Shown here in pieces: positions 7,762 to 23,480 of a DNA stretch of 64,000 nt. The stretch comes from Qipengyuania psychrotolerans. GTDB taxonomy: Bacteria > Pseudomonadota > Alphaproteobacteria > Sphingomonadales > Sphingomonadaceae. The first letter of the stretch is position 1. Every line of letters begins with the position of its first letter. Below the pieces are notes generated by a model that made no database searches, was not told the DNA's origin, and saw only the letters and a program-made list of their open reading frames with translations. A program made the position numbers and the translations under genes. The stretch is from positions 1,798,001 to 1,862,000 of the forward strand of contig NZ_CP081297.1 of the NCBI RefSeq assembly GCF_019711355.1, read 5' to 3'.

Positions 7762-9168
7762 TTAGTTCGCGATGCTCGACAAAAGACGGAAGCCCCAGGC
7801 GGGCAAAGTCACCTCGTCGCCCGCCTTGAGGACAACGGGCTCGCGAGACTGAAATTCTTCGAACCGTCCCCCAGCCAGCCCATCGGCGAGCGATGCGGTG
7901 ACCGGTTCCGGCGAGAAATTGAACAGTCCCACGACCTTGTTGCCATCTTCCTGGCGGACCCAGGCGAAGACCTGCTTCGGCTTGTCTGTCACGACCTGCT
8001 GCATCCGCGCGCCCCACTGGCCATTTTCCAAGGCCGGATTGGCTTTGCGAAATTCAATCAGCTCCCCGAGCAATTCGCCGTAATTGCAACCTGCGCCCTG
8101 GCTCCAGTCGATCGGGTCCGTCTCGAAGAATTGCAGGCGTTTGGAATTGCAGGCTTCCATGCCGTTGTGGATCAGCGGCAGGCCCTCGCCGGTGAAGGAC
8201 AAGGCGGTCATGGCCTCCAGCGCCGGGCCGTAATTTTCCTGCACCGTGCCTTCCCACGCATTGCTGTCGTGGTTCTCGATATAGGTCATCCGCATGGCCT
8301 CGCGCGGCCACAGGCTCTCATTTTCGGCATAATACCCATAGAAGCTGGTGGCATCGCCCTTGCCCTGCGCCACGTTCTTCGTGGTGTTGTGCCAATCCCA
8401 GGCATAAGTGGCGTCGAAGGCGGAGTGATGGAATGCAGTTTGCTGCACTTCGCCGAGCATGAAGACAGGACGAATGGCGGTCAGCCGCTCGCGCATGGTT
8501 TCCCAAAAGTCGAGTGGGACATACCCCGCCACATCGGCGCGGTATCCATCGACGCCAAACTCGCGGACCCAATACTCCATTGCCTCGCCCACATGCTGGC
8601 GCACGCCGGGCTTTGACCAGTCGAGGTCGATGATGTCGGACCAATCCCACCACGGTGTCGGCCGAAAATCGCCGTCCCAGGTCTTTTCGTACCAGTCCGG
8701 ATGCTCTGTTCGCAGCGCATTGTCCCAGGCCGTGTGATTGGCCACCAGATCGAGGATTACCTTGAAGCCTTGTCCATGCGCAGCTTCCACGAAATCCCGG
8801 AATTCTTCTTCGGTCCCGAATTCCGGATTTACGCCGTAATAATCCTGTACCGAATAAGGGCTGCCCAGCGTGCCTTTTCGGTTCTCCTGACCGATCGGAT
8901 GGATCGGCATAAGCCAGAGAATGTCCACGCCAAGTTCCTTCAGCCGCGGCAGTTCTTCCTGCGCAGCACGAAAGGTGCCCTCTTCGGTGAAATGGCGCGT
9001 ATTGATCTGGTAGAGGACCGCATCGCGCGACCATTCAGGATGCTCGATCGAAACTTTGCTGTGCAGTTCCCACTCAGTTGCAGCAGGCTCGTCGGCCGTG
9101 CCGCTCATCGCGAGGGCACTGCCCGCTAGCAGAGCCGCTGCGGCGGCTCCAACGAATAGCTTACGCAC
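7762..9168 (-). CDS. exported GH13 alpha-amylase family enzyme
   Basis: A 468-aa glycoside hydrolase with a signal peptide (about residues 1-20, ending SALA). The GH13 barrel is complete: DLVANHT (140-146), nucleophile D212 in GYRADVAGY, acid/base E240 in FMLGE, and D301 in IENHD. It should cleave alpha-1,4 linkages in the periplasm or outside the cell; the fine specificity (maltogenic, neopullulanase-like) is unresolved. It overlaps the MFS gene by 8 nt and ends a minus-strand lacI-MFS-amylase gene run. Confidence 0.93.
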   Translation of the reverse strand: MRKLFVGAAAAALLAGSALAMSGTADEPAATEWELHSKVSIEHPEWSRDAVLYQINTRHFTEEGTFRAAQEELPRLKELGVDILWLMPIHPIGQENRKGTLGSPYSVQDYYGVNPEFGTEEEFRDFVEAAHGQGFKVILDLVANHTAWDNALRTEHPDWYEKTWDGDFRPTPWWDWSDIIDLDWSKPGVRQHVGEAMEYWVREFGVDGYRADVAGYVPLDFWETMRERLTAIRPVFMLGEVQQTAFHHSAFDATYAWDWHNTTKNVAQGKGDATSFYGYYAENESLWPREAMRMTYIENHDSNAWEGTVQENYGPALEAMTALSFTGEGLPLIHNGMEACNSKRLQFFETDPIDWSQGAGCNYGELLGELIEFRKANPALENGQWGARMQQVVTDKPKQVFAWVRQEDGNKVVGLFNFSPEPVTASLADGLAGGRFEEFQSREPVVLKAGDEVTLPAWGFRLLSSIAN

Positions 9169-10699
9169 GGGCTTCCTCCCCTGGCACGGTCACTCGCAGC
9201 ATGGCGAAGGCAGCAATCGTCCAGCTCGCCGCCGCGAACAGCATCGTCCAGATCGGATCGTCCGGGAAGAAGGCGTTCATCACGCTGCCCATCACGGTCG
9301 CCACGAGCAATTGCGGCACCACGATGAAAATATTGAACAGCCCCATGTAGATACCGAGCTTGGCCTGCGGCAGACTGCTGGCCAAGATCGCATAGGGCAT
9401 CGCGAGGATAGAGGCCCAAGCAATGCCTTTGAGTATCTCGCAGACAAGCAGCAAATTGGGATCGCGCAGCACGAAATAGCCAAGGAAGCCGAGCGCACCC
9501 AGCAAGAGACAGGTCATGTGCGTGCGCGCCTTGCCGATGCGTCTCGATAGCACCGGCAACACCGTCAGCGCGGCGACTGCGGCAACCGCATTTTGCACCG
9601 TGTAGATCAGGTTCCACCAGTTCGCGCCCTCGTTATATGCGGCGGTGGTCGGATCGGGGCTGCCATAGAAATACTGTGACACGATCGGGCCGGAATATAT
9701 CCACATTATAAAGAGCGATGACCAGCTGAAGAACTGGACCAGTGCGAGCTTCTTCATCGTGTCCGGCATGCCGGAAAAATCGCCGACAATGCTCGACAGC
9801 ATATTGGCATGCTTGCCCTGCTTCGCCATCGAAATGCCGATAGCGCTGAGAACTCCGTAGACGGCAAGAAGGCCCCCGAGCAGGTAGATTTCTTTCTCCA
9901 GCCCGAGCGGGCTGACACTCGCTATCACGGCCAGTCCGGCAGCAATCCACAGCACGGCAGAACCGTAGGTTTTCGCGGCCAGCGCACGCACGCTCTGACC
10001 CGTTTCGACTTCCCGCTCGGCCTCGAAGGCGGCCATTTCTTCCGGGCTGTATTCCTTGGTCGAGACGACCGTCCAGCCGATCGCCAAAAACAGCGCAGCG
10101 CCTCCTGCCCAAAAGCTCCATTTGACAGTGTCGGGTATCTCGCCAGCCGGGGCGATATTGCTTACCCCGAACTGTTCCAGCAGCCACGGGAAGATTGCCG
10201 CAACCACGGCCCCCGCTCCGATAAAGGCAGTCTGAACTGCATATCCGGTCGCGTGCTGCGACTTGTCGAGCATGTCGCCGACGAATGCACGGAACGGCTC
10301 CATCGAGATGTTCAGGCTTGCATCCAATACCCACAGCAGCGCAGCAGCGAACAACAGCGGCGCACCAAAAGCCGGGGCCAGCGGCATCAATAGCAGTGAG
10401 ATTGCGGCAAGGATTGCACCGGTCATGAAGTAGGGCCGGCGGCGGCCAAAACGATTCCAGGTCTTGTCCGAAAGATGGCCGATAATTGGCTGGACAATCA
10501 GGCCGGTAAGCGGCGCTGCAACCCAGAGCGCAGGAAGATCGTCGAGCGATGCGCCCACGGTCTGGAAAATCCGGCTCATGTTCGAGTTTTGCAGCACGAA
10601 CCCGATCTGGATGCCAAAAAAGCCAAAGCTGATGTTGGCAAGCTGCCCCCAGCCCATCTGCGGTTTGCGCGCCTGGGTATTTGCGGCCGAAGTCGCCAT
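9161..10699 (-). CDS. MFS sugar transporter (maltose/sucrose SLC45-like)
   Basis: A 512-aa protein with about 12 membrane segments. The first cytoplasmic loop GHLSDKTWNRFGRRRPYF (near 70-87) is the typical MFS motif and strongly resembles GPH/SLC45-type disaccharide:proton symporters. It likely imports maltose or short maltodextrins across the inner membrane for the cytoplasmic alpha-glucosidase. I start at ATG 10699, 9 nt after GGAGAGG; the open frame goes 26 codons further but has no hydrophobic or family-like sequence. It is downstream of a LacI-type operator candidate and overlaps the amylase gene. Confidence 0.9.
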   Translation of the reverse strand: MATSAANTQARKPQMGWGQLANISFGFFGIQIGFVLQNSNMSRIFQTVGASLDDLPALWVAAPLTGLIVQPIIGHLSDKTWNRFGRRRPYFMTGAILAAISLLLMPLAPAFGAPLLFAAALLWVLDASLNISMEPFRAFVGDMLDKSQHATGYAVQTAFIGAGAVVAAIFPWLLEQFGVSNIAPAGEIPDTVKWSFWAGGAALFLAIGWTVVSTKEYSPEEMAAFEAEREVETGQSVRALAAKTYGSAVLWIAAGLAVIASVSPLGLEKEIYLLGGLLAVYGVLSAIGISMAKQGKHANMLSSIVGDFSGMPDTMKKLALVQFFSWSSLFIMWIYSGPIVSQYFYGSPDPTTAAYNEGANWWNLIYTVQNAVAAVAALTVLPVLSRRIGKARTHMTCLLLGALGFLGYFVLRDPNLLLVCEILKGIAWASILAMPYAILASSLPQAKLGIYMGLFNIFIVVPQLLVATVMGSVMNAFFPDDPIWTMLFAAASWTIAAFAMLRVTVPGEEARA

Positions 10700-10719
10700 A
10701 CGATCAATCCTCTCCCCGG

Positions 10720-10737
10720 CCGGGCTGTTTTGCCCGG
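10720..10737 (-). other. leader hairpin before the MFS gene
   Basis: CCGGGC (10720-10725), loop of 6 and GCCCGG (10732-10737) form a perfect 6-bp stem between the candidate operator and the ribosome binding site of the MFS gene. No U-tract follows, so it is not a clear terminator for lacI; it could stabilise the leader. Confidence 0.35.
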
Positions 10738-10781
10738 TCACGAAAGGATGGCTCGCACGAAGTACCATCATGCGCAAACAC

Positions 10782-10801: not shown

Positions 10802-11833
10802 TCAGGCTTTGGCTGTACTGCCTCTGATCACGAGTTTTCCGGGCAGCTTGTGCGGAGTGACTTCGCGGTCCGCAATCTGTGACAGAAGCGCATCTACCAG
10901 GCTTTCGCCCGCGCCCCTCACATCCTGCGTTACCGTGGTGAGCGGCGGCGTGGTCAGGCTTGCGGCGGGGATGTCGTCGAACCCCACGACGGCAATGTCG
11001 TCAGGCACCTTCTTCCCGGCATCTGCAAGAGCGCGCATCGCACCGATCGCGATCAGATCGCTGGCAGCGAAAATGGCGTCGCAATCCGCGCCGCTCTCCA
11101 GCAATTTTCGGGCCGCACAATACCCTGCCTCTTCGGTCGTTATCGCGTCGAAGCGCGGTGGGGGAGGCAATCCGGCATCTTCGGTCACTTCTCTCAGGCC
11201 AGTGAAACGTCCGAGAAACTCCGGGCAAGTCTCGTCAGCTTCGCCTAGGAATGCGATCTGCCGCTTACCAATTTCGAGCAGGTGCCTGCCGACCAGCCGC
11301 CCAGCGTCGACATTGTCGGTTCCCACGGTCGCTCCGCTGGAATCCAGGCTGACCGAACCCCATCGCGCGTAGTGAGTGCCCTGTGCGACCAGCTTTTCCA
11401 GCTTGGGCGTGTATGTCGTGTAATCTCCATAGCCGAGCAGGATCAGGCCGTCTGCCCGGTGGCTGTCCTGATACTTGACGTGCCAGTCATCTTCCATCCG
11501 CTGAAACGAAATCAGCAAGTCCAGGCCCCGGTCCGCGCAGGCCCGGGTGATCGACCCCAGCATGGCGAGAAAGAATGGATTGATCATGCTTTCATCGGGA
11601 GTGGGATCTTCGAAAAACAGCAGCGCAATCGTGTTCGATCTTTGCGAGCGCAACGAGGATGCGTTCTTGTCGACCGTGTAATTGAGGTCGCGCGCGATTT
11701 GCTGGATCTTCTGACGGGTCTGCTCGCTCACGGAGCGATCTCCGCGCAGCGCACGGCTGACGGTTGGCTGCGAAACTCCGGCAGCATAGGCAATGTCGAA
11801 ACTGGTCGGACGACCAGTCGGCTTGCGTCCCAT
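10802..11833 (-). CDS. LacI family transcriptional regulator of the alpha-glucan locus
   Basis: A 343-aa regulator of standard LacI length. The N-terminal helix-turn-helix is clear (DIAYAAGVSQPTVSRALRG at about 13-31), followed by a hinge helix and a periplasmic-binding-protein-like sensor domain (ending around VVGFDDIPAA). It probably senses maltose or maltodextrin and controls both the MFS-amylase pair and the divergent receptor operon (inference from position and paired operators). I start at ATG 11833 behind GGAGGAGAG rather than 10 codons upstream. Confidence 0.93.
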   Translation of the reverse strand: MGRKPTGRPTSFDIAYAAGVSQPTVSRALRGDRSVSEQTRQKIQQIARDLNYTVDKNASSLRSQRSNTIALLFFEDPTPDESMINPFFLAMLGSITRACADRGLDLLISFQRMEDDWHVKYQDSHRADGLILLGYGDYTTYTPKLEKLVAQGTHYARWGSVSLDSSGATVGTDNVDAGRLVGRHLLEIGKRQIAFLGEADETCPEFLGRFTGLREVTEDAGLPPPPRFDAITTEEAGYCAARKLLESGADCDAIFAASDLIAIGAMRALADAGKKVPDDIAVVGFDDIPAASLTTPPLTTVTQDVRGAGESLVDALLSQIADREVTPHKLPGKLVIRGSTAKA

Positions 11834-11966
11834 CTCTCTCCTCCAGGCCGCACCAGCAGCCATGGCCCGCGACCATAAGCCTATCCCGATAAAAGTGCCA
11901 TGCCCGAGGCAGCCAGCCCGCTAGAATCATGTGACATTTGGGCACCGCGCAGATTTGGCGGACGGT

Positions 11967-11981
11967 TGCGTATACGTATGC
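11967..11981 (+). promoter_or_regulatory. candidate LacI-family operator upstream of the TonB receptor operon
   Basis: TGCGTATACGTATGC lies in the 272-nt divergent region between lacI and the receptor, 125 nt before the receptor ATG. The CGTATACG core is shared with the site at 10781-10788. It could control both the receptor operon and lacI itself. Apart from this site I see no well-formed -35/-10 pair in the divergent region. Confidence 0.55.
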
Positions 11982-12105
11982 TGTCTTCCGCCGCCCCCCA
12001 ACCAGCACGTATCAAAACTGTCATACAGGCCGAAGAGAAGCTGCCTGTGGGGTATTTGAGCCGGACCTCGGCAAACAGGGGGCGGCCATCTGGGAGAGCA
12101 AAGTA

Positions 12106-14901
12106 ATGGCATTTCGCAAGCATCTTGCCGGGAGCACCAGCGTTCCGGTTCTGGCCCTCGCACTCGTCGGCGGTTTTACTCCGTCCATTGCCGCTGCGCA
12201 AAGCACGCAGCCGGCGACCACGGTCCAGGAAGAAGAAGGCCAGCCGGTCGACGATGCGGACACGGACGAATCTGCGGTCATCATCGTCAGCGGCTTCCGC
12301 GAATCGCTTGCATCGTCGGTCGCGCAGAAGCGCAACAGCGACCTCATCCTTGAATCGGTCACGGCGGAAGACATCGGCAAGCTGCCCGACGATTCCATCG
12401 GCGAATCGATCGCCCGCCTCCCCGGCGTAACATCGCAGCGCCTCAATGGCCGCGCCAACGTCATCGCCATTCGCGGCCTTGGCCCGGACTTTTCGCAGAC
12501 GCTTCTCAATGGGCGCGAGCAGACCTCGACCGGTGACAACCGCGCAGTCGAATTCGACCAGTATCCCTCGGAAGTCGTCAATCAGGTGCTCGTCTACAAG
12601 AGCCCCTCTGCCAGCCTCGTGGGCCAGGGCCTTGTCGGTACGATCGACATCCGCACCATCCGCCCGCTCGAGACGGGTGAAACGATCTTCGCCATCGGTG
12701 CCAAGGGTTCGTACGCGGACATCGGTGCGCTGAACGCAGGTTCGAAGGAATTCGGTTACCGCGCCAACGCAACTTACGTAGACCAGTTCGCTGACGACAC
12801 GCTCGGCATCGCGCTTTCGGCTGCCTATACCGACGAGCCGTATCAGCTGCAGGAATTCAATGCCTGGGGTTATGCGGGCAGCGGCGAACCGGGCAGCCCC
12901 TTCGTCATCGGCGGCAACAAGAGCTTCGTCACTTCGACACAGCTTACTCGTCTCGGCTTTAACGGCACGCTGCAGTGGGAAGCATCGCCCACGCTGATGG
13001 TCACACTCGACGGGTTCTATTCGAATTTTGACGATGACCAGTCCAAGCGCGGCATCGAGCTTCCGCTCGGCTTTGGCGCTTTCGGCACGACCTTCGACCC
13101 CTCGACCGCAACCGTTGTCGACGGCCCATTCGGCGGCTTTGCCGAACAGGGCACCTTCGAAAACGTCGAAGGCGTAGTCCGCAACGACGTGTTCCAGCGC
13201 GAAGCAGACCTCTATTCCGGTGGCCTGAACCTCAATTATGAAGGTGACGATGGCTGGAGCGCGTTCTTCGACATCGGTTTCTCGCGCACCGATCGCAACG
13301 AGCTGAGCATCGAAAGCTATTCCGGCACCGGCTACAACGCTGGCGTCGGAGCGACCGATACCATCCAGTTCTTCTCGGACGAAAACGGCACGAGCTTCGA
13401 TCCCACGCTGGATTACAGCGACCCCAACCTGATCGTCCTGACCGATCCGCTTGGCTGGGGCGGCAGCCGCATCCAGGCCGGTTACTACAACAATCGCATT
13501 ATCAAGGACGAACTCTACCAGTACCGCCTCGGCGTTGCGAAGGACATCGAGAGCTTCATTTCGAAAGTCAGCTTCGGCCTGTCCTATACCGACCGTTCCA
13601 AGAGCCTGACGCCGGACGAATTCTTTGTTTCGCCCGCCAATGGCGCGACCGAAATCGCCATCCCGAGCAGCGAGCTGCTCCGTCCGACAGACCTCGGCTA
13701 TCTCGGCCTCGGCCCGATCGTCAGCTACGATGTTCGCAACCTGATTGCAGATGGCACGCTGGTGCTCGACGCGAACGACAGCAACGATATCCCGGCCAAG
13801 GCTTACGGAATCACCGAAAAGCTGATGACTGCATACCTTCAGTTCGACGTGCAGCAGGACCTCGGTTCAGGGGAATTGACCGGTAACTTCGGCGTGCAAG
13901 CCGTGAACACCGAACAAAACTCGACCGGTGTCGCATTTACGAACGTTGACGGTCTTCCGGGCGACGAAAGGGTCAATCTCTCGCTCGGCGACAATTACTG
14001 GGACATCCTTCCCAGCGCCAACCTGTCGCTGCGCTTCGATAGCGGGTGGGTATTCCGCCTTGCTGCCAGCCGCCAGATCCAGCGTCCGCAGCTCGATGAC
14101 CTTCGTGTCGCCATCGGTTACGGCATTGTCGAAACCAACAACGGCCAGAGCCCGACCGGCGAATATCCGTACATCTCCGGCGGCGGCGGCAACCCGGTTC
14201 TGCGTCCGTACCGGGCCAATGCCGTCGATTTCAACATCGAGAAATACTTCGCTGGCGGCGCTGGCGTGATCGCAGCCCAGCTCTTCTACAAGGATCTGGT
14301 CAGCTACATCGATGGCGACGTGCAAGTCTTCGACTACAGCACCTTCCCGCTTCCCGCAGGCAATGCGCCGGCAAGCCCGATTGGTCTGCTGTTCTCCGAA
14401 GTGAACACGGGCGGCGGCAATTTCTACGGCGCTGAGCTTTCGGCAACGGTTCCATTCGACGTTTTGACACCGGCGCTCACCGGCTTCGGCGTGACCGGCG
14501 GCCTTGGCTACACCAAGACCGAGATCGAGAACGCACAAGGCGAAATCGACCAGATTCCCGGTTACTCGAAGTGGGTCGCCAACGGCACGCTGTACTATGA
14601 TCTCAACGGCTTCAGCGCCCGCGGCAGCGTTCGCTACCGTTCGGAATTCCTCGCTGACTTCACCGGCTTCGGCGGAAATATCGTTCGCCGTCTGGCCCGT
14701 GCAGAAACTATCGTCGACGCGCAGATCGGCTATGAATTCCAGCCCGGTAGCGCGCTCGAAGGCCTCTCGATCTACGTGCAGGGCCAGAACCTGACGAACC
14801 AGCCCTTTGTATCGCAATTCGACGTACCTGAACCGCGAGCGGTGATCGATTACCAGGAATACGGACGCCGGTTCCTCGCCGGGTTCACCTACAAGTTCTA
14901 G
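12106..14901 (+). CDS. TonB-dependent receptor for alpha-glucans
   Basis: A 931-aa outer-membrane receptor. It has a signal peptide ending near SIAAAQ (about 31), a TonB-box-like segment SAVIIVSGF (near 58-66), a plug domain (EDIGKLPDDSIGESIARLPGV, within 85-115), and a large barrel ending in YKF with the typical terminal Phe. It should import malto-oligosaccharides across the outer membrane using TonB energy. No SusD partner is present, as usual in Proteobacteria. I start at ATG 12106 behind GGGAG, because the open frame upstream (to 11938) covers the promoter region and has no signal peptide. Confidence 0.94.
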   Translation: MAFRKHLAGSTSVPVLALALVGGFTPSIAAAQSTQPATTVQEEEGQPVDDADTDESAVIIVSGFRESLASSVAQKRNSDLILESVTAEDIGKLPDDSIGESIARLPGVTSQRLNGRANVIAIRGLGPDFSQTLLNGREQTSTGDNRAVEFDQYPSEVVNQVLVYKSPSASLVGQGLVGTIDIRTIRPLETGETIFAIGAKGSYADIGALNAGSKEFGYRANATYVDQFADDTLGIALSAAYTDEPYQLQEFNAWGYAGSGEPGSPFVIGGNKSFVTSTQLTRLGFNGTLQWEASPTLMVTLDGFYSNFDDDQSKRGIELPLGFGAFGTTFDPSTATVVDGPFGGFAEQGTFENVEGVVRNDVFQREADLYSGGLNLNYEGDDGWSAFFDIGFSRTDRNELSIESYSGTGYNAGVGATDTIQFFSDENGTSFDPTLDYSDPNLIVLTDPLGWGGSRIQAGYYNNRIIKDELYQYRLGVAKDIESFISKVSFGLSYTDRSKSLTPDEFFVSPANGATEIAIPSSELLRPTDLGYLGLGPIVSYDVRNLIADGTLVLDANDSNDIPAKAYGITEKLMTAYLQFDVQQDLGSGELTGNFGVQAVNTEQNSTGVAFTNVDGLPGDERVNLSLGDNYWDILPSANLSLRFDSGWVFRLAASRQIQRPQLDDLRVAIGYGIVETNNGQSPTGEYPYISGGGGNPVLRPYRANAVDFNIEKYFAGGAGVIAAQLFYKDLVSYIDGDVQVFDYSTFPLPAGNAPASPIGLLFSEVNTGGGNFYGAELSATVPFDVLTPALTGFGVTGGLGYTKTEIENAQGEIDQIPGYSKWVANGTLYYDLNGFSARGSVRYRSEFLADFTGFGGNIVRRLARAETIVDAQIGYEFQPGSALEGLSIYVQGQNLTNQPFVSQFDVPEPRAVIDYQEYGRRFLAGFTYKF

Positions 14902-14910
14902 GGCTCCTCC

Positions 14911-14996
14911 GGCCGGGCGGGGTTTGCGAAAGCAGGCTCGCCGTCCGGCCACTCGTCTGCCGGGAAATGCTGTTCCCAAGATGGCTTTCCCGGCAG
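14911..14996 (+). other. two tandem mRNA hairpins between receptor and halogenase genes
   Basis: Hairpin A pairs GGCCGGGCGG (14911-14920) with CCGTCCGGCC (14941-14950), 10 bp with one G-U. Hairpin B pairs CTGCCGGGAAA (14957-14967) with TTTCCCGGCAG (14986-14996), a perfect 11-bp stem. There is no U-tract, so they look like stabilising or attenuating structures that could keep receptor mRNA more abundant than the downstream operon. Confidence 0.6.
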
Positions 14997-15015
14997 GCTC
15001 CAATAGGGTGAGCTT

Positions 15016-16533
15016 GTGACCGAAGAGAGTTCCTTTCGCATAGTGATCGCCGGGGGCGGTACAGCCGGCTGGATGGCCGCTGCGCTGCTTGCGCGCTTCC
15101 TGCCTTCCACGCATTCGGTCACGTTGGTCGAGAGCGCAGACATCGGCACAGTCGGTGTCGGCGAAGCGACGATTCCGCAGATCCGCTATATCAATCACGC
15201 ACTCGGCCTCGACGAAGCCCAGTTTCTTCGCGAGACCAAGGGCACCTTCAAGCTGGGTATCGAGTTCAACGGCTGGCGGCGCGAGGGCGAGGCATACATG
15301 CATGCCTTCGGCCCCGTGGGGCGCGGCCATGGCCTGCTGCCGTTCCATCACTACTGGCTGCGCGCCAAGCAGCTTGGCATCGCGAAACCGCTGGCGCACT
15401 ATTCGCTCAATGAAACGGCTGCGCGCTCGCTCAAGATGCGGCGCGGATCACGGACCCCGCGCTCACCGGAAATGCCATATGCCTACCACTTCGATGCCGG
15501 GCTCTACGCCGCGTTCTTGCGGCGGTATGCCGAAGGCCGCGGCGTTGTTCGCATCGAGGGCACTATCGGGAATGTCGAACAGGACAGCGCTACCGGGTCG
15601 ATCACCGCCCTCACACTGGGCGAAGAACGCCGGATCGAAGGCGATTTCTTTATCGATTGCACCGGTTTCCGCGCACTCCTGATCGAACGCACGCTGAAAA
15701 CCGGGTTCGATGACTGGACGGATTACCTGCCTTGCGACCGGGCGATGGCTGTCCCTTCCGACAATGGCGGCGATTTTACGCCCTACACCCGCTCGATCGC
15801 GCGAAGCGCAGGTTGGCAATGGCGCATCCCGCTCCAGCACCGCATCGGCAATGGTCTTGTCTATTCATCCGCGCACTTGTCGGACGAAGATGCTGCCGAA
15901 ACACTCTTGGCTAATCTCGACGGCGCTCCGCAAGGCGATCCACGTCCGATAAGTTTCACCACCGGCAAGCGGCGCAAACACTGGAACGCCAATTGCCTCG
16001 CACTGGGCCTTGCGGCCGGGTTCATGGAACCGCTGGAATCCACCAGTATTCACTTGGTCCAAAGCGCGGTCAGTCGGTTCCTTTCGGTCCTGCCGGGCGC
16101 CGAGGCCGACCCCGCCATTCGCGATTGGTTCAACGGTCAGGCGGATTTCGAGTGGTTGCGCATCCGTGATTTTCTCGTTCTTCATTATTCGGTCAACGAA
16201 CGTGAGGGAGAGCCCTTGTGGGACGCTGTTCGGCACATGAAAAAGCCGGACACTCTGGTGGCCAAGCTGGAAAACTGGCGGGCTGCCGGATTTATTCACC
16301 GCGAGCACGAGGAGCTTTTCACCGAAGTCGGGTGGTTCCAGGTGCTTGCCGGTCAGGGTTTGGAGGCGCGCTCCTACAACCCCCTCGCCGATGCGCTGAG
16401 CGAAGATGATCTGCGCAGCCTGCTCGGTAGTATCGAGGCTGCCTGCGCGGAAGAGGCGCGGCAAATGCAATCCCACAGCGAATTCCTCAACAAATTCGCA
16501 AATCTCCCTCCCCATCAGGACGCAGTCGCATGA
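15016..16533 (+). CDS. flavin-dependent halogenase-like protein (tryptophan halogenase family), copy 1
   Basis: A 505-aa PF04820 flavoprotein. It has the FAD-binding GGGTAG at 13-18, GVGEATIP at 47-54, a lysine at K79 (the position and number of the catalytic Lys in PrnA-type enzymes), the halogenase WxWxIP motif as WQWRIP at 267-272, and FMEPLEST at 336-343. All key features of an active halogenase are kept, but the substrate is unknown and tryptophan is only the family name. Start is GTG 15016 after AGGGTGAG. It lies between the receptor and the amylases and overlaps the next gene by 4 nt. Confidence 0.88.
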   Translation: MTEESSFRIVIAGGGTAGWMAAALLARFLPSTHSVTLVESADIGTVGVGEATIPQIRYINHALGLDEAQFLRETKGTFKLGIEFNGWRREGEAYMHAFGPVGRGHGLLPFHHYWLRAKQLGIAKPLAHYSLNETAARSLKMRRGSRTPRSPEMPYAYHFDAGLYAAFLRRYAEGRGVVRIEGTIGNVEQDSATGSITALTLGEERRIEGDFFIDCTGFRALLIERTLKTGFDDWTDYLPCDRAMAVPSDNGGDFTPYTRSIARSAGWQWRIPLQHRIGNGLVYSSAHLSDEDAAETLLANLDGAPQGDPRPISFTTGKRRKHWNANCLALGLAAGFMEPLESTSIHLVQSAVSRFLSVLPGAEADPAIRDWFNGQADFEWLRIRDFLVLHYSVNEREGEPLWDAVRHMKKPDTLVAKLENWRAAGFIHREHEELFTEVGWFQVLAGQGLEARSYNPLADALSEDDLRSLLGSIEAACAEEARQMQSHSEFLNKFANLPPHQDAVA

Positions 16534-18371
16534 TCCGCCAGTCTCTCCCCCTCATCGCCCTAGCAATAGCTGCGTGCGCCAATGCACAGCCTGCGCCGGT
16601 CAGCACTGCGCCAACCGAGGGAACCAGCTTCCGTGAACGCCTGCCCAGCGAGGAGATCGTCTATTTCGTCCTGCCCGACCGGTTCGAGAACGGCGATCCG
16701 AGCAATGATCTGGGTAACTTCAGCGGCGGTCCGATGGAAACCGGGTTCGATCCTGCGCACAAGGGGTTTTTCCACGGGGGCGATCTGAAGGGTCTGACGG
16801 AGCGGTTGGACTATCTCGAGAACCTGGGCGTCACCGCAATCTGGTTCGCCCCGATTTTCCAGAACAAACCCGTCCAGGGCACACCTGGCAATGAAAGCGC
16901 TGGCTATCACGGATATTGGGTGACGGATTTCACGCGGCCGGACTCGCATTTTGGCTCGCGCGATGAATTCAAGGCTTTCGTCGATGCCGCCCATGCGCGC
17001 GGGATGAAAGTCTATATGGACATCATCACCAACCACACTGCCGACGTGATCCTGTATCTGGAAGGCGATGAAAGCGGCTATACCTACCGCAGCAAGGGCG
17101 ACTTTCCCTATTCCCGCAAAGGCGGCGTCAACGGCGAACCAATCAATGACGGCTTCCTGGGCGATGAAGTGCGAACGGCCGAAAATTTCGCAAAGCTGAC
17201 CGATCCCGCATATGCTTACACGCCGACTGTTCCCAAGGCTGAAGCCGATGTGAAGGTCCCCGCCTGGCTCAACGATCCGATCTATTACCACAACCGCGGC
17301 GACACGACCTTCAGCGGAGAAAGCAGCCGGCAGGGTGATTTCGTGGGGCTGGACGATCTGTTTACCGAACACCCCCGCGTGGTCGAGGGCATGATCGAGA
17401 TCTATTCGGCCTGGATACGCGACACCGGCGTCGACGGCTTCCGCGTCGACACTGCCCGTCATGTAAACCCGGAATTCTGGCAGGCGTTCGTGCCCGCGAT
17501 GCTGGAGACTGCGCGCGAAAACGGCATTCCGAACTTTCATATCTTCGGCGAAGTTTACCGCGACAATCACGACAATGGCTACATCGCACAGTACACGCGG
17601 CGCGACGGTTTTCCTGCCGTGCTCGACTTTGCATTCCAGCAGGCCATCCGCGAAACAGTGAGCCAGAAAAAGGGCACTTACATTCTCAACGAATTGTTCG
17701 ATGGCGATGTCCTTTACGAAGGCGGCGAAGAAGCGGCGCTTACAATGCCGACCTTCCTTGGCAATCACGACATGGGGCGCTTCACGACCATCCTGCGGTG
17801 GGACAATGAGGAAATCTCCAGCGCCGAAATGCTCGCCCGCACGAAGCTGGCGCACGCTATGCTCCTGGCGCTGCGCGGATCGCCCGTCGTCTATTACGGT
17901 TCCGAGCAAGGGTTCGTGGGCGATGGAAACGATCAGGCCGCTCGCGAGGACATGTTTCCCAGCCTCACCGACAGCTATAATGACAACCAGCTGATCGGTA
18001 CCGATGCCACCACAGCGGACAGCAATTTTGACGAAAGCCATCCGCTGTTCCGACTAATCGCCGAACTTTCGGCAGTCCGCCGTGCGCACCCTGCACTGCT
18101 TCGTGGACGCCAGATAGTGCGGCATTATGGCCAGGAACCGGGCGTGTTTGCAGTGAGCCGTTTCGATCCGGAGAATGGCGGCGAATATCTCGCGGTTTTC
18201 AACACAAGCGATGCGGCGCAAACGGCCAATGTAACGCTTGGCTATGACGCTCGCAGCTTTGAAGCGCTTGCCGGCTCCTGCCCAGCAGCAGTTTCCGCTC
18301 CCGGCAGTGCCGCGTTCTCGCTTCCCGCCTTTGGCTGGGCGATTTGCCGCGTTTCGGAGACTGCCGAATGA
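16530..18371 (+). CDS. lipoprotein GH13 alpha-amylase
   Basis: A 613-aa GH13 enzyme with a lipoprotein signal (LAIAAC, Cys16), so it is probably anchored to the outer membrane. Catalytic residues are D307 in GFRVDTARH, E341 in HIFGEVY and D414 in GNHDMGRF. Long insertions follow TNHTAD (168-172), giving a total length above that of simple amylases; a beta-sandwich C-terminal domain ends the protein. It should cut polymer or large dextrins near the receptor. ATG overlaps the halogenase stop (ATGA). Confidence 0.92.
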   Translation: MIRQSLPLIALAIAACANAQPAPVSTAPTEGTSFRERLPSEEIVYFVLPDRFENGDPSNDLGNFSGGPMETGFDPAHKGFFHGGDLKGLTERLDYLENLGVTAIWFAPIFQNKPVQGTPGNESAGYHGYWVTDFTRPDSHFGSRDEFKAFVDAAHARGMKVYMDIITNHTADVILYLEGDESGYTYRSKGDFPYSRKGGVNGEPINDGFLGDEVRTAENFAKLTDPAYAYTPTVPKAEADVKVPAWLNDPIYYHNRGDTTFSGESSRQGDFVGLDDLFTEHPRVVEGMIEIYSAWIRDTGVDGFRVDTARHVNPEFWQAFVPAMLETARENGIPNFHIFGEVYRDNHDNGYIAQYTRRDGFPAVLDFAFQQAIRETVSQKKGTYILNELFDGDVLYEGGEEAALTMPTFLGNHDMGRFTTILRWDNEEISSAEMLARTKLAHAMLLALRGSPVVYYGSEQGFVGDGNDQAAREDMFPSLTDSYNDNQLIGTDATTADSNFDESHPLFRLIAELSAVRRAHPALLRGRQIVRHYGQEPGVFAVSRFDPENGGEYLAVFNTSDAAQTANVTLGYDARSFEALAGSCPAAVSAPGSAAFSLPAFGWAICRVSETAE

Positions 18372-19954
18372 GCGGGGTGCTGCCTTGGTGGAAGGGTGCG
18401 GTAATCTATCAGATCTATCCGCGCAGCTTCATGGATTCCAACGGGGACGGTATCGGCGATCTCCCGGGCATCACCCAGCGCCTGCCGCACATTGCCGACC
18501 TGGGTGCGGATGCGATCTGGATATCTCCCTTCTTCAAATCCCCCATGAAGGATTTCGGCTACGACGTAGCTGATTACTGCGATGTCGATCCGATTTTCGG
18601 TACGCTGGCGGATTTCGATAAAGTCGTCGCCCGGTCGCACGAGCTTGGGCTCAAGGTCCTGATCGACCAAGTCTATTCGCACACCTCCGACGAGCATAAA
18701 TGGTTTACCGAAAGCCGTTCCAGCCGCCACAACGACAAGGCTGACTGGTATGTCTGGGCCGATGCCAAGCCCGACGGCTCTCCGCCTTCGAACTGGCAAT
18801 CCGTTTTCGGTGGTCCTGCGTGGACGTGGGATGCCAGGCGGGGGCAGTATTACCTGCACAATTTCCTCAGCAGCCAGCCGCAGCTAAACCTGCACAATGC
18901 CGATGCACAGCAGGCGGTGCTCGAAGTGATGCGTTTCTGGCTGGAACGCGGTGTCGACGGATTCCGGATCGATGCGCTCAATTTTGCGATGCATGACCCA
19001 CAGCTGCGCGACAATCCGCCCGCCCCTGCCACGAATAAGCCGCGCACGCGCCCGTTCGATTTCCAGCTCAAGACCTACAACCAGAGCCATCCGGATATCC
19101 CGGCGTTCATCGAACGAATTCGCAATCTGACCGACGAATACGACGGTATCTTCACCGTTGCCGAAGTCGGCGGCGATGATGCCGTGCGCGAAATGAGGGC
19201 CTTTACCCAAGGCGAAACCCATCTCAATTCGGCTTACGGGTTCAACTTCCTTTATGCTGACGCCTTGACGCCCACCCTTGTCTGCTCGGCCTTGGCCGAA
19301 TGGCCGGACGAGCAGGGACTGGGCTGGCCGAGCTGGGCGTTTGAAAACCACGACGCGCCGCGCGCGCTGAGTCGCTGGTGCAAGCCGGAAGACCGCGAGG
19401 CTTTTGCCCGGCTCAAGACGCTCCTGCTGATGAGCCTGCGGGGCAACGCCATCCTTTATTATGGAGAGGAGCTCGGCCTTATGCAGGTCGATATCCCGTT
19501 CGACCAGCTCCACGATCCCGAAGCGATTGCGAACTGGCCGCTCACCCTTAGCCGCGATGGTGCGCGTACACCGATGCCTTGGGACGAAAGCGACTGCGCC
19601 GGTTTTGGCAGCGAGACCCCTTGGCTGCCCATCGGAGATCACAACCGCGATCTGGCGGTCGAGTTGCAGCGAGCATCGGCGTCATCCCTGCTCGCCTCCA
19701 CCAAGACTGCGATTGCGCTGCGCAAGACGAACCCTGCCCTGCACCACGGCCGTATCGCGGACTGCACGCATGACGGCGATTTGCTGGAATTAACGCGGGA
19801 GGCAGATGGGCAACTGCTGCGTTGCCGGTTTAATCTGGGCAGCGACCAGATCGACTGTTCCGACTGCGAAGGCGAAGTACGGCTCGCGATCAACGGTGCC
19901 AGCACGACATCCCTGCCCCCCTACTCAGCCATCATTCTGGAGCTTGAAGCTTGA
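18368..19954 (+). CDS. cytoplasmic GH13 alpha-glucosidase
   Basis: A 528-aa enzyme of the oligo-1,6-glucosidase/alpha-glucosidase group. The N-terminus AVIYQIYPRSF (11-21) with NGDGIGDL is typical. Catalytic residues are D202 in GFRIDALNF, E266 in FTVAEVGGD and D329 in FENHDAP. It has no signal peptide, so it should hydrolyse imported maltose and dextrins in the cytoplasm. Start ATG 18368 overlaps the previous stop; the frame stays open 8 codons upstream but those are inside the upstream gene. Confidence 0.93.
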   Translation: MSGVLPWWKGAVIYQIYPRSFMDSNGDGIGDLPGITQRLPHIADLGADAIWISPFFKSPMKDFGYDVADYCDVDPIFGTLADFDKVVARSHELGLKVLIDQVYSHTSDEHKWFTESRSSRHNDKADWYVWADAKPDGSPPSNWQSVFGGPAWTWDARRGQYYLHNFLSSQPQLNLHNADAQQAVLEVMRFWLERGVDGFRIDALNFAMHDPQLRDNPPAPATNKPRTRPFDFQLKTYNQSHPDIPAFIERIRNLTDEYDGIFTVAEVGGDDAVREMRAFTQGETHLNSAYGFNFLYADALTPTLVCSALAEWPDEQGLGWPSWAFENHDAPRALSRWCKPEDREAFARLKTLLLMSLRGNAILYYGEELGLMQVDIPFDQLHDPEAIANWPLTLSRDGARTPMPWDESDCAGFGSETPWLPIGDHNRDLAVELQRASASSLLASTKTAIALRKTNPALHHGRIADCTHDGDLLELTREADGQLLRCRFNLGSDQIDCSDCEGEVRLAINGASTTSLPPYSAIILELEA

Positions 19955-21987
19955 TCCGCCATATCGTCCTGATGCTCACTGCGAGCCTGCTTCCGATTAC
20001 CGCCGCGCAGGCGGAAACTGTCACCTCGCCAGATGGCCGCATCAGCGTCACTCTCGATGCTGATGGAGAAGGCATTCCCTATTACGAAGTGGCCCGAGAC
20101 GGTGTGCCGGTGATTGCCAAATCCAATCTCGGCTTCACGTTCACCGATGCTGATCCCATGCGCCGCAATTTCGAAGTGGTCGCGTTCCGCGAGGAAAGCC
20201 ATGCAAGCACCTGGGAACAGCCTTGGGGCGAGCGTCAGTGGGTGCAGGACATTCACAACGAACTGGCCATCACCTTCCGCCAGAAGGATGACGACGCGCG
20301 TGAAATCCTCGTCAGAATGCGTGTCTTCGACGACGGGCTCGGCTTCCGCATGGAATTTCCGGAGACCGGGCTCCAGCCTACCTACCGCATTTCCGAAGAG
20401 CTGACCGAGTTCAACATCGCGGCGGACGGCACTGCCTGGTCCATCCCTGCAGGTGACTGGAACCGGTACGAATACCTCTATGCCGAAACACCGGTCAGCG
20501 CCCTTTCGACGGTCCATACGCCAGTGACGATGGTACTGGACAACGGGCTGCACCTGTCATTCCATGAAGCGGCGCTAGTCGATTATTCGGGCATGTGGAT
20601 GAGGCGCATGGACGGCACACGTTTCCGCGCGCAACTGGCTCCTTCTCCGCGAGGGCCCAAGGTCATCCGCGACGGCGCATTCACCACCCCATGGCGCACC
20701 ATCCAGATTGCGGGCGGTCCGAAGGGACTCTTCGAAAGCAATATCATCCTGAACCTCAACGAGCCGAACAAGCTGGGCGACGTAAGTTGGTTCACCCCGC
20801 ACAAATACATCGGCATCTGGTGGGAGATGCATCTTGAAGACAGCAGCTGGGCCAGCGGCGAAAAGCACGGTGCGACCACTGAAAATGCCAAGCGCCACAT
20901 CGACTTCGCGGCGCAGCATGGCTTTCGAGGCGTCCTGATCGAAGGGTGGAACCTGGGCTGGGACGGAATGTGGTTCGGGAACGGGCGCGATTTCGACTTC
21001 ACCACCGCCTACCCTGATTTCGATATCGCCGAAGTTGCGCGCTATGCTGCAGACAATGGCGTGAAGATCATCGGTCACCACGAAACCGGCGGCAACATCA
21101 AGGTCTACGAAGAACAGCTCGAAGATGCGATGGCCTTCTATGAAAGCCTCGGGATCGATGCTGTAAAAAGCGGCTATGTCGCAGATGCAGGAGGCATCAT
21201 CGCTCCCGCAGGCGAAGGCGGCCAGGGCGAAACTTTCGTATGGCATGACGGCCAGGAGATGGTCCGCCATCATCTGAAGGTCGTGCGAGAAGCTGCCGCG
21301 CATAAAATCGCCGTGAACCCGCACGAACCGGTCAAGGATACCGGCCTGCGCCGTACTTATCCCAACTGGGTGAGCCGCGAGGGAGCACGGGGCGCGGAAT
21401 ACGATGCATGGTCAGTACCGAAGAACGATCCTGGACACGTTCCGGAACTCATCTTCACCCGATTGCTGTCGGGCCCGATGGACTACACTCCCGGAGTGTT
21501 CTCGCTTGAAGGTCGCGGGGCGACTGCTCCCGATTTGCCCAGCACGCTGGCCCGCCAATTGGCCTTCTATGTCGCGATCTATTCGCCCATCCAGATGGTG
21601 GCGGACTTGCCAGAAAACCTCGCGAAATATCCGCGCGCGCTCGACTTCGTGAAACGCGTTCCGGCCGATTGGGCCGAGAGCTTGCTGGTTGACGGCAAGG
21701 TCGGAGAATATGCGGTCATCGCGCGGCGCGATCGCGGCACTTTGAACTGGTACGTCGGAGCAGTAACCGATGCCGAGGAACGCCAGGCCAGCGTGCCACT
21801 GACCTTCCTCGATCCCGGCAAAAACTACCGGGCGACAATCTGGCGCGACGGTGCGACGGCGGATGGACTTGGAGCGGATCGTCATGCGATGGAGGTGGAC
21901 ACAATGACCGTAACATCCGTCCAAACGCTCGACCTGCGCCTTGCCCCTGCGGGCGGATTTGCGATCGAGTTCGTGCCCGAAGGGTGA
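19951..21987 (+). CDS. exported GH97 glycoside hydrolase (alpha-glucosidase, SusB-like)
   Basis: A 678-aa protein with a signal peptide (to about ITAAQA, 21), an N-terminal beta-sandwich, a barrel and a C-terminal sandwich, the GH97 architecture. HHE378T, NPHE459P and REGARGAE483Y match the glutamates of the inverting SusB group (compared from memory), suggesting inverting alpha-glucosidase rather than the retaining galactosidase type. It should act in the periplasm. The start is TTG 19951, which overlaps the previous stop (TTGA); no other start gives a signal peptide. Confidence 0.88.
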   Translation: MIRHIVLMLTASLLPITAAQAETVTSPDGRISVTLDADGEGIPYYEVARDGVPVIAKSNLGFTFTDADPMRRNFEVVAFREESHASTWEQPWGERQWVQDIHNELAITFRQKDDDAREILVRMRVFDDGLGFRMEFPETGLQPTYRISEELTEFNIAADGTAWSIPAGDWNRYEYLYAETPVSALSTVHTPVTMVLDNGLHLSFHEAALVDYSGMWMRRMDGTRFRAQLAPSPRGPKVIRDGAFTTPWRTIQIAGGPKGLFESNIILNLNEPNKLGDVSWFTPHKYIGIWWEMHLEDSSWASGEKHGATTENAKRHIDFAAQHGFRGVLIEGWNLGWDGMWFGNGRDFDFTTAYPDFDIAEVARYAADNGVKIIGHHETGGNIKVYEEQLEDAMAFYESLGIDAVKSGYVADAGGIIAPAGEGGQGETFVWHDGQEMVRHHLKVVREAAAHKIAVNPHEPVKDTGLRRTYPNWVSREGARGAEYDAWSVPKNDPGHVPELIFTRLLSGPMDYTPGVFSLEGRGATAPDLPSTLARQLAFYVAIYSPIQMVADLPENLAKYPRALDFVKRVPADWAESLLVDGKVGEYAVIARRDRGTLNWYVGAVTDAEERQASVPLTFLDPGKNYRATIWRDGATADGLGADRHAMEVDTMTVTSVQTLDLRLAPAGGFAIEFVPEG

Positions 21988-23480
21988 AAGACAACCACCC
22001 TCCCCACGTCGTCGTTCTGGGCGGCGGCAGTGCCGGCTGGATCACCGCTTGCCTGCTCCACCAACAGTGGGCCAAGCGGGGCGGGCGCGTTACTGTGGTG
22101 GAAAGCCCGGCCATCGGCATCATCGGTGTCGGCGAAGGCTCGACACCTCAGCTCAAGGCGTTCTTCGATCACCTGGGCATCGCCGAAAGCGATTGGATGG
22201 CGGCCTGCGATGCGACCTACAAGCTCGGCATCCGCTTTTCCAGATGGAGCGAGCGCGAAGGCTGCGAGAGCTATTTCCACCCCTTTCCGGGGCCGGTCGA
22301 CCTTCATAGCGAACCCGGCTTCACCCACAATTGCGCGCTGCGCCGCCGCGGCTTCGATGTACCAGCGCATCCCGATGACTGGTTTCTCGCTGCACGATTG
22401 GCCGAGGATTGCAAAAGCCCCGAGCCGAGCGCAAACTTCCCATTCCCGCAAAGCTATGGCTACCACTTCGACGCACACAAACTCGGGGCATTCCTGCGCG
22501 ATTGGGCCGTGCCGCGCGGCATCGTCCATCACCAGCTGAAAGTCGAACACGCGGAAGTTGGCGACAGCGGCGATATCGCAGCGCTCATTTGCGAAAATGG
22601 GGAGCGGATTGAGGGCGATCTGTTCGTCGATTGCTCAGGCTTTGCAGCCTTGCTCGCACAGCAGAAGCTGGGTGAGAGCTTCATCCCGTTTGACGACAAT
22701 CTCTTCAATGACCGCGCCGTAGTCATCCCGACGCCCCACTCCGGTCCGGTGAAACCGCAAACCGAAAGTATCGCGATGAACGCCGGTTGGCGCTGGGCCA
22801 TCCCGCTGACCACGCGGGTCGGCAATGGTTACGTCTATTCTTCAAAGCATATCTCTGACGAAGAAGCCGAGACCGAGCTGAGGTCAGCGCTGGGCCCGGG
22901 CGCAGAAGAGGCTGACGCGCGGGTCTTGAAAATGAAAGTCGGGCGGCTGGAAAAAAGCTGGACGCGCAACTGCCTCGCGGCGGGACTGGCGCAAGGCTTC
23001 ATTGAGCCGCTCGAGGCGACAGCGCTGCACATTGTGATCGCGACAGCGCTCGACTTTGCCAGCGCTTATGAAAGCGGCGGCTTCACGGATCAGCACAGGG
23101 CTGAGTTCAACCGCCGTATCGCCGCACGCTATGATGGGATCCGCGACTATATCGTTGCGCATTACCGGATGAACCAGCGACACGGCACACCGTACTGGCG
23201 TGAAAATGCCTCGAACCAGGCGCTGTCCGACAATCTCAAGGCAATGATGACCGCGTGGTTCACGCAAGTGCCTGTGACCGAAGCCAATGCTAGGATCTAC
23301 GGCGCGAACCCGGCCTATCCCTCGATGAGCTGGCACGCACTGTTCGCTGGCTACGGGACGTTTCCTCCCGCCGCGAAGTTGCAAGCGCTGCCTACAGACG
23401 TCGAAGCCGCTGACATCGAAGGGACGCGCGCAATGCTGTCTGCCTGCGCGCGCAACTTCCCCGATTACAAACCGGTCTGA
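21984..23480 (+). CDS. flavin-dependent halogenase-like protein (tryptophan halogenase family), copy 2
   Basis: A 498-aa paralogue of the product at 15016-16533. It keeps GGGSAG (13-18), GVGEGSTP (48-55), the equivalent Lys K80, and WRWAIP (269-274). The EPLEST segment is EPLEAT here (341-346), so the Ser next to the catalytic Glu in PrnA-type enzymes is Ala. It may still be active or may have altered chemistry. The start is GTG 21984, overlapping the GH97 stop (GTGA). It is the last gene of the receptor operon and ends 9 nt before a convergent gene. Confidence 0.86.
   Translation: MKDNHPPHVVVLGGGSAGWITACLLHQQWAKRGGRVTVVESPAIGIIGVGEGSTPQLKAFFDHLGIAESDWMAACDATYKLGIRFSRWSEREGCESYFHPFPGPVDLHSEPGFTHNCALRRRGFDVPAHPDDWFLAARLAEDCKSPEPSANFPFPQSYGYHFDAHKLGAFLRDWAVPRGIVHHQLKVEHAEVGDSGDIAALICENGERIEGDLFVDCSGFAALLAQQKLGESFIPFDDNLFNDRAVVIPTPHSGPVKPQTESIAMNAGWRWAIPLTTRVGNGYVYSSKHISDEEAETELRSALGPGAEEADARVLKMKVGRLEKSWTRNCLAAGLAQGFIEPLEATALHIVIATALDFASAYESGGFTDQHRAEFNRRIAARYDGIRDYIVAHYRMNQRHGTPYWRENASNQALSDNLKAMMTAWFTQVPVTEANARIYGANPAYPSMSWHALFAGYGTFPPAAKLQALPTDVEAADIEGTRAMLSACARNFPDYKPV

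Follow-up and report, generated by a model that had tools for sequence, protein, structure and literature searches.

The closest described relatives of the enzyme considered here are BrvH and Xcc4156, which, according to the accessible parts of the reports, do not halogenate free tryptophan, are devoid of the lid loops of the tryptophan halogenases and have a solvent-open active site (PMC5945002, PMC7336383). Their authors propose that they act on larger substrates, even peptides (PMC5945002, PMC7336383), and state that the native substrates of BrvH and of the Xanthomonas enzymes of the class are unknown (PMC7336383); a word search of the available text of these papers found no mention of gene context. 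A precedent for a halogenase acting on tryptophan within a peptide is MibH of the NAI-107 pathway, as related in the sections available (PMC5945002, PMC7336383). On the side of sugar uptake, the CUT loci (sux, mal), Caulobacter MalA and the starch system of X. citri, as far as the available text describes them, encode a LacI regulator, an MFS transporter, a TonB receptor and enzymes for alpha-glucans together (PMC1790865, PMC10714752). A locus of like composition lies in the 64,000-nucleotide (nt) stretch of the Qipengyuania psychrotolerans genome (2.74 Mb; G000) analysed here, i.e. positions 1,798,001 to 1,862,000 of contig NZ_CP081297.1 (the window). It differs from the CUT loci in that a gene for a PF04820 flavoprotein, H1, lies between the receptor and the enzymes; the word "halogenase" does not occur in the accessible text of PMC1790865 and PMC10714752. 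We propose, with belief falling just short of doubt, that H1, acting in the cytoplasm as a flavin-dependent halogenase or an oxygenase of related type, modifies a tryptophan of the nascent receptor encoded upstream, most likely W507. The features on which this proposal turns are the following:

11938..14901, plus strand: TonB-dependent receptor (TIGR01782, 523.9 bits against a cut-off of 310; likely start ATG 12103)
12865..12867, plus strand: second candidate tryptophan codon (W310 of the open reading frame beginning at 11938, within QEFNAWGY; probably near the outer end of a strand)
13456..13458, plus strand: candidate target tryptophan codon (W507 of the same frame, W452 counted from ATG 12103, within LTDPLGWGG; predicted outer loop)
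14902..15015, plus strand: intergenic gap from receptor to H1, holding two strong hairpins (stretch 14885-15025: minimum free energy -74.4 against a shuffle mean of -53.3, z -5.2)
15016..16533, plus strand: H1, PF04820 flavoprotein of the BrvH/Xcc4156 class (599 bits), the proposed receptor-tryptophan modifying enzyme
21984..23480, plus strand: H2, second PF04820 flavoprotein, of another subclass (425 bits)

Both H1 and H2 show the FAD glycines, the catalytic lysine (K79 in H1, K80 in H2), a PLE motif with the glutamate and the WxWxIP signature (WQWRIP and WRWAIP, respectively), and score far above the PF04820 cut-off of 21 bits; the original prediction, made from the DNA letters alone, of two PF04820 genes with FAD motif, these lysines and WxWxIP is hence borne out in full. 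The two are only 36% identical, their nearest solved relatives differ, and inspection by eye revealed a signal peptide in neither. For H1 the closest PDB chains are 9luq, 6y1w and 6frl (best chain 499 bits), and it matches Xcc4156 (6y1w) and BrvH (6frl) along its length at 466 and 430 bits. Its second substrate loop (region 2) aligns without gaps to that of Xcc4156, so that an open active site is expected in H1, and the closest relatives together with the short substrate loop place it in the BrvH/Xcc4156 class. The long lid loop of the free-tryptophan halogenases PrnA and RebH was not found in H1, where region 2 matches that of Xcc4156, described as lid-less in the accessible part of its report. 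H2, judged by alignment only, is about 6 residues longer than H1 at the lid-loop region, and its best PDB matches are tryptophan 5-/6-halogenases at 304 bits, with BrvH at 252. A further PF04820 protein of this genome, H3, has WLWDIA in place of WxWxIP. The PDB entry 5uao, which we take to be MibH, is a weak match of H1 (208 bits as against 499 for the best PDB chain), with no close relation between them found; the peptide of MibH is an antibiotic, whereas the proposed substrate of H1 is a transporter. The flavin monooxygenase QhpG also acts on a tryptophan residue of a protein; H1 through H4 match its model NF049967 weakly (32.7-39.2 bits), far under the cut-off of 240 bits, and are thus not QhpG members. 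Unlike Xcc4156 and BrvH as published, to the extent of the text available, H1 appears from its surroundings to have a named receptor partner and a candidate tryptophan. The open sites of this class may accept peptides, and a substrate encoded next door would fit the receptor itself.

Among relatives of these enzymes the catalytic lysine is kept in 117 of 129 and the glutamate in 119 of 129, both counted, like the receptor-halogenase pairing test and the shared-tryptophan-column search below, on earlier gene calls in which some halogenases were missed and the loci L027 and L067 were misplaced as halogenase-free. This conservation, along with a flavin-reductase gene adjoining two of the cassettes, argues against these being non-modifying flavoproteins, such as redox, oxygen or halide sensors or receptor chaperones. 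The 12 relatives wanting the lysine, the glutamate or both comprise two distant single genes, one truncated frame and nine paralogues in clusters of 2-4 halogenases; these nine are what such a sensor or chaperone role could draw upon, and we consider it decidedly unlikely. Degenerate paralogues without lysine or glutamate are seen at nine loci (L011, L016, L019, L023, L024, L041, L059, L080 and L087): one of these is a pair, and the other eight are among the ten clusters that comprise three or four halogenases. The paralogues are possibly pseudoenzyme partners.

The association of such enzymes with receptors extends well beyond the window. Across 60 genomes of the order Sphingomonadales, with at least 150 TIGR01782 receptors, at least 137 PF04820 genes are strong matches (>=300 bits), and at least 98 of these have a listed receptor no more than 6 kb away. 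In 71 of the 97 halogenase loci read in this order a receptor stands at most 3.5 kb from the halogenase, which is downstream on the same strand in 55, divergent in 14 and otherwise arranged in 2. SapC is found in 27 and Cupin_8 in 26 of the 97, against 0/60 and 1/60 halogenase-free receptor loci (controls representing 60 of the 74 receptors listed at a distance from any listed halogenase, with the other 14 left out), and GH13/GH97 genes in 22/97 against 2/60. With each of these present in a minority of loci, it is the receptor that constitutes the constant partner. Hence the earlier view that tied these enzymes to glucan use itself is not supported, given that just 22/97 loci have GH13/GH97 and that complete alpha-glucan operons exist with no halogenase adjacent (L157, L255, L256). 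In 80 named loci from Alpha-, Beta- and Gammaproteobacteria, collected by halogenase sequence, a receptor occurs within 300 nt in 68 and GH13/GH97 in 49. A search independent of the halogenase (E up to 1e-60, with no more than 3 candidates scored per genome) found a window-like receptor in 8 of 290 alphaproteobacterial genomes, with an H1-like gene at most 2.3 kb away in 8/8, one of them convergent; on plasmids, 10 records gave a receptor with >=94% coverage and >=33% identity, with a halogenase within 1.4 kb in 8 and none adjacent in 2.

Receptor and halogenase also co-vary, with a Mantel r of 0.39 against a mean of 0.08 and a maximum of 0.22 in 1000 within-genome shuffles (66 pairs), and their nearest neighbours agree in 46 of 54 cases, where 300 such shuffles gave 16.4 on average and 29 at most, a picture of pairing that joint inheritance of the cassette would likewise produce. 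Co-occurrence of PF04820 genes with TonB receptors across genomes, put forward for checking in the original prediction, is above chance and spans all three proteobacterial classes; chance adjacency or hitchhiking, for which no supporting point was found, is accordingly hardly credible, and the halogenase-receptor link is real and broader than at first described. Of the genera then named, Caulobacter is represented among the 80 loci with halogenase next to receptor (L188, from C. vibrioides DSM 9893, L241 and L243), Xanthomonas shows a receptor at one of three loci (L194, with none found at L201 and L239), and Brevundimonas does not appear. A literature search covering few subscription papers and no preprints found no report linking PF04820 genes to TonB receptors.

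If the receptor is the substrate, its tryptophans might bear the mark of the association. We compared 44 halogenase-adjacent with 44 halogenase-free representatives of 60% identity clusters, none of them mixed, having excluded receptors of <780 residues (here and in the shared-tryptophan searches) and set aside 6 receptors lying >3.5 kb from a halogenase. Of 372 dipeptides WG is the most enriched, being present in 41/44 halogenase-adjacent as against 20/44 halogenase-free receptors (p 1.5e-6, a value that overstates independence, as do the other p-values, because the receptors are related and their adjacency changes only some ten times). The top tripeptide is YNW (24 vs 4), with NWG at 14 vs 0 and GWG at 11 vs 0; mean tryptophan content is 11.5 in the adjacent and 7.5 in the halogenase-free set, and that of tyrosine 33.0 and 33.3. 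The motif [NG]WG, picked after the dipeptide and tripeptide scan, is found in 36/59 receptors beside H1-class enzymes, 2/14 beside other classes and 0/64 without a halogenase, the class boundary being set by us at 41% identity to H1. Anchoring two loops by strand pattern caught 45/59, 3/14 and 17/64 of these receptors, with a tryptophan in either loop in 45, 3 and 8. The 13 receptors with a double-tryptophan pattern have 1, 1, 1, 2, 2, 2, 3, 4, 4, 4, 4, 4 and 4 halogenases nearby and the other 62 have 1 or 2, which is suggestive of tryptophan number tracking halogenase number, if not strictly.

Several observations count against the proposal that a receptor tryptophan is the target. The plain WG dipeptide also occurs in 34/64 halogenase-free receptors and in 11/14 of those beside other-class enzymes (57/59 beside the H1 class). 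On a 206-tip tree, adjacency to a halogenase changes about 10 times, against 54 for shuffled labels. No tryptophan column is common to all halogenase-adjacent receptors, a search for an invariant one in the plug or the whole receptor having found none, and the motif sits in different loops in different receptor clades, the Trp-Gly motif of the other clades falling, by sequence position, in the next outer loop. As the receptors beside other-class halogenases are mostly without [NG]WG, the idea as it stands misses the H2-like enzymes. Two other approaches were set aside: a search for a tryptophan covarying with H2 (12/82 receptors being H2-linked) ranked tyrosine and phenylalanine columns first, ahead of the best tryptophan column (9/12 vs 19/70), with all of them confounded by kinship; and hand-made motif patterns (57/75 vs 2/64) were devised after seeing the receptors and missed many distant loci.

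The receptor-tryptophan association bears directly on the alternative that the enzymes act on a small aromatic compound, e.g. an indole or phenol that the cell imports or produces while using glycans, with the receptor linked to them only as importer of the glycan or of the compound. PF04820 enzymes of known function do mostly act on small molecules. Moreover, BrvH brominates free indole, at low activity, according to the accessible part of its report (PMC5945002). Against this alternative stand the association with receptor tryptophans and the fact that the link spans receptors beside GH13/97, GH3, GH16, GH10 and GH20 genes with no common aromatic pathway noticed among them; we hold it to be unlikely, if not negligibly so. 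The aromatic ligand or defence compound that had been suggested at first is not indicated by any gene of the locus. For the latter, a halogenated antimicrobial made when glucan is present, the parallel would be the halogenases of antibiotic clusters; the neighbours here are a regulator, a transporter, a receptor and glycosidases, with SapC and Cupin_8 in a second cassette of the genome, and no biosynthetic gene was recognised among the scanned proteins, making such a role very improbable.

Within the alpha-glucan receptor clade, a tryptophan at the position of W507 is present in 77/77 halogenase-adjacent receptors, even as loop length varies, and is the sole fully invariant tryptophan of the 77 (77/82 upon including the second receptors of five tandem pairs, which were removed by hand after their want of the tryptophan was seen). 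The position is occupied by Val in these five second receptors, by Gly in L157 and by Tyr in L158, the latter two without an adjacent halogenase. At the position of W310, 69/77 have a tryptophan and the remaining 8 Tyr or Phe; it is absent in L157, L158 and the five tandem receptors, the residues in these being F, S and L (5). The L157 operon has LacI and MFS as well as receptor, GH13, GH13 and GH97 genes, with no halogenase between receptor and GH13; no strong match to PF04820 was obtained in its genome (G054), whereas that of L158 (G045) has halogenases elsewhere. None of the 120 matches listed for the L157 receptor has the tryptophan, most showing a gap in the loop, which points to one clade rather than many events. 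The contrast in the alpha-glucan clade therefore rests on few events, which tempers the case for a receptor target; among 23 genomes lacking a strong match to PF04820, the L157 receptor was the sole one found near this clade. For the window receptor, the 120 closest homologues listed have both W507 and W310 (120/120), and, to the detriment of a special role for either, a third tryptophan is equally invariant there.

The L157 operon also bears on the rival view that the target is a different operon product, namely a glycosidase or the transporter, and that the receptor tryptophan is kept for glycan binding. Tryptophan columns conserved to >=93% number 5 in GH13b, 15 in GH13c, 13 in GH97 and 8 in the MFS transporter (38, 42, 27 and 33 operons, respectively), and 0/41 of them are lost in L157: the same alpha-glucan genes persist with all their conserved tryptophans, yet that of the receptor is gone. 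Furthermore, the stretch read contains no GH13/GH97 gene at 75/97 halogenase loci. On the other hand, glycosidases and transporter too pass through the cytoplasm, tryptophans of outer loops can stack on sugars, and two receptors retain the tryptophan with no halogenase beside them. On balance modification of another operon protein appears quite unlikely. Such retention is nevertheless a difficulty for the receptor-target proposal as well: plasmid operons of Sphingobium V4 and Novosphingobium RL4 keep both tryptophans without an adjacent halogenase, in receptors 66-67% identical to halogenase-adjacent ones, and on the plasmids, to which the search was confined, the other listed halogenase of RL4 has a receptor of its own. 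Either the halogenase was lost recently in V4 and RL4, or another enzyme serves, or the tryptophan has a use of its own.

An AlphaFold2 model of the receptor (40 sequences, pLDDT 85.9, pTM 0.84) places W452 (W507) in a stretch, 435-459, between two strands, with a pLDDT of 88 for the block 451-460. Since the strand after this loop ends in a 4-residue turn (482-485), strand alternation, as read from the strand list, predicts the W507 loop to be on the outer side. The top PDB fold matches of the model are TonB receptors; a search of the PDB with the receptor sequence matched no chain.

Taken together with the adjacency, these features lead to the proposal that H1 is dedicated to the TonB-dependent receptor encoded directly upstream and would act on the indole of a tryptophan in the nascent, still unfolded chain, most likely W507 in LTDPLGWGG (or else W310), brominating, chlorinating or hydroxylating it before export of the receptor. 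In the folded barrel the altered tryptophan would come to lie in an outer loop and might there adjust glycan binding or shield the receptor. H2 would act as a further modifier, on another target, and the SapC and Cupin_8 proteins of sister cassettes may be fellow receptor-maturation enzymes. As a tentative generalization, to which we lend somewhat less than half our confidence, many proteobacterial sugar receptors would bear a halogenated or hydroxylated outer-loop tryptophan, set prior to export by a dedicated PF04820 enzyme, often along with SapC and Cupin_8; this would be a new way of maturing transporters and would also be what the BrvH/Xcc4156 class natively does. If so, outer-membrane receptors can be chemically edited by the cell, with a bearing on TonB-dependent glycan uptake; many so-called tryptophan halogenase genes beside receptors would be explained; and the native substrate of BrvH/Xcc4156-class enzymes would be a named tryptophan of the partner receptor.

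The remaining genes of the locus are as follows:

7762..9168, minus strand: GH13 alpha-amylase-family enzyme of the divergent arm (PF00128, 119.8 bits)
9161..10777, minus strand: MFS sugar transporter (PF07690 / PF13347; TIGR01301 at 85 bits, below its cut-off of 511)
10802..11863, minus strand: LacI-family regulator, probably the local regulator (PF00356, PF13377)
16530..18371, plus strand: GH13 enzyme (PF00128, 216.9 bits), with a lipoprotein-like signal by eye
18368..19954, plus strand: GH13 alpha-glucosidase-like enzyme (PF00128, 407 bits), without a signal peptide by eye; ATGA overlap
19951..21987, plus strand: GH97 enzyme (PF10566, PF14508, PF14509), with a signal peptide by eye

The rightward order is thus TonB receptor, H1, GH13, GH13, GH97 and H2, and the leftward one LacI, MFS and GH13. 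The divergent set, running from 11863 to 7762, had escaped the original prediction and also belongs to the locus; that the halogenases flank the GH13/GH97 genes behind a TonB receptor, with 4-nt overlaps, had been recognised correctly, as profile matches and sequence confirm. The overlaps are at H1/GH13, GH13/GH13, GH13/GH97 and GH97/H2, provided that translation of the second GH13 begins with ATG 18368 rather than TTG 18344. Receptor and H1 are spaced by 114 nt, and the hairpins in this gap could be an expression step-down, perhaps lowering the H1 enzyme relative to the receptor. With a TIGR01782 score above cut-off and LacI, MFS and glycosidase genes adjoining, the locus belongs to the CUT-locus type; the nearest named protein to its receptor carries an Erythrobacter / Qipengyuania aquimaris label (93%).

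PF04820 genes number four in this genome and form two pairs, each linked to a receptor. The second cassette runs receptor - halogenase - SapC - Cupin_8 - halogenase - LacI - MFS, followed by a GH3-like gene, and beside it, in divergent orientation, lies the sole PF01613 flavin-reductase match of the genome (L007:6310-6966; G000:C1:1968435-1968866). In the congener G039 a PF01613 homologue (L068:8553-9143) follows 40 nt after a halogenase gene. As a flavin reductase is present in just 2/177 halogenase loci, it is not a general part of the cassettes.

By gene model, the nearest 3.5 kb contain no receptor at 26 of the 97 halogenase loci; a few have one further off, and the others may be something else. 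Five receptor-less loci (L036, L058, L071, L077 and L104; PF04820 at ~450-465 bits) have several unassigned gene families in common, and their neighbourhood may represent a separate system; these families, like some of the glycosidase neighbours named above for the linked receptors, were drawn partly from the earlier gene calls. Another set of eight loci has the order receptor - SapC - halogenase without Cupin_8 (L015, L030, L038, L042, L056, L066, L082 and L098); their receptors gave no match to the hand-made tryptophan motif patterns, their halogenases are 31-39% identical to H1 and H2, and GH20 or glucokinase genes are found near some of them.

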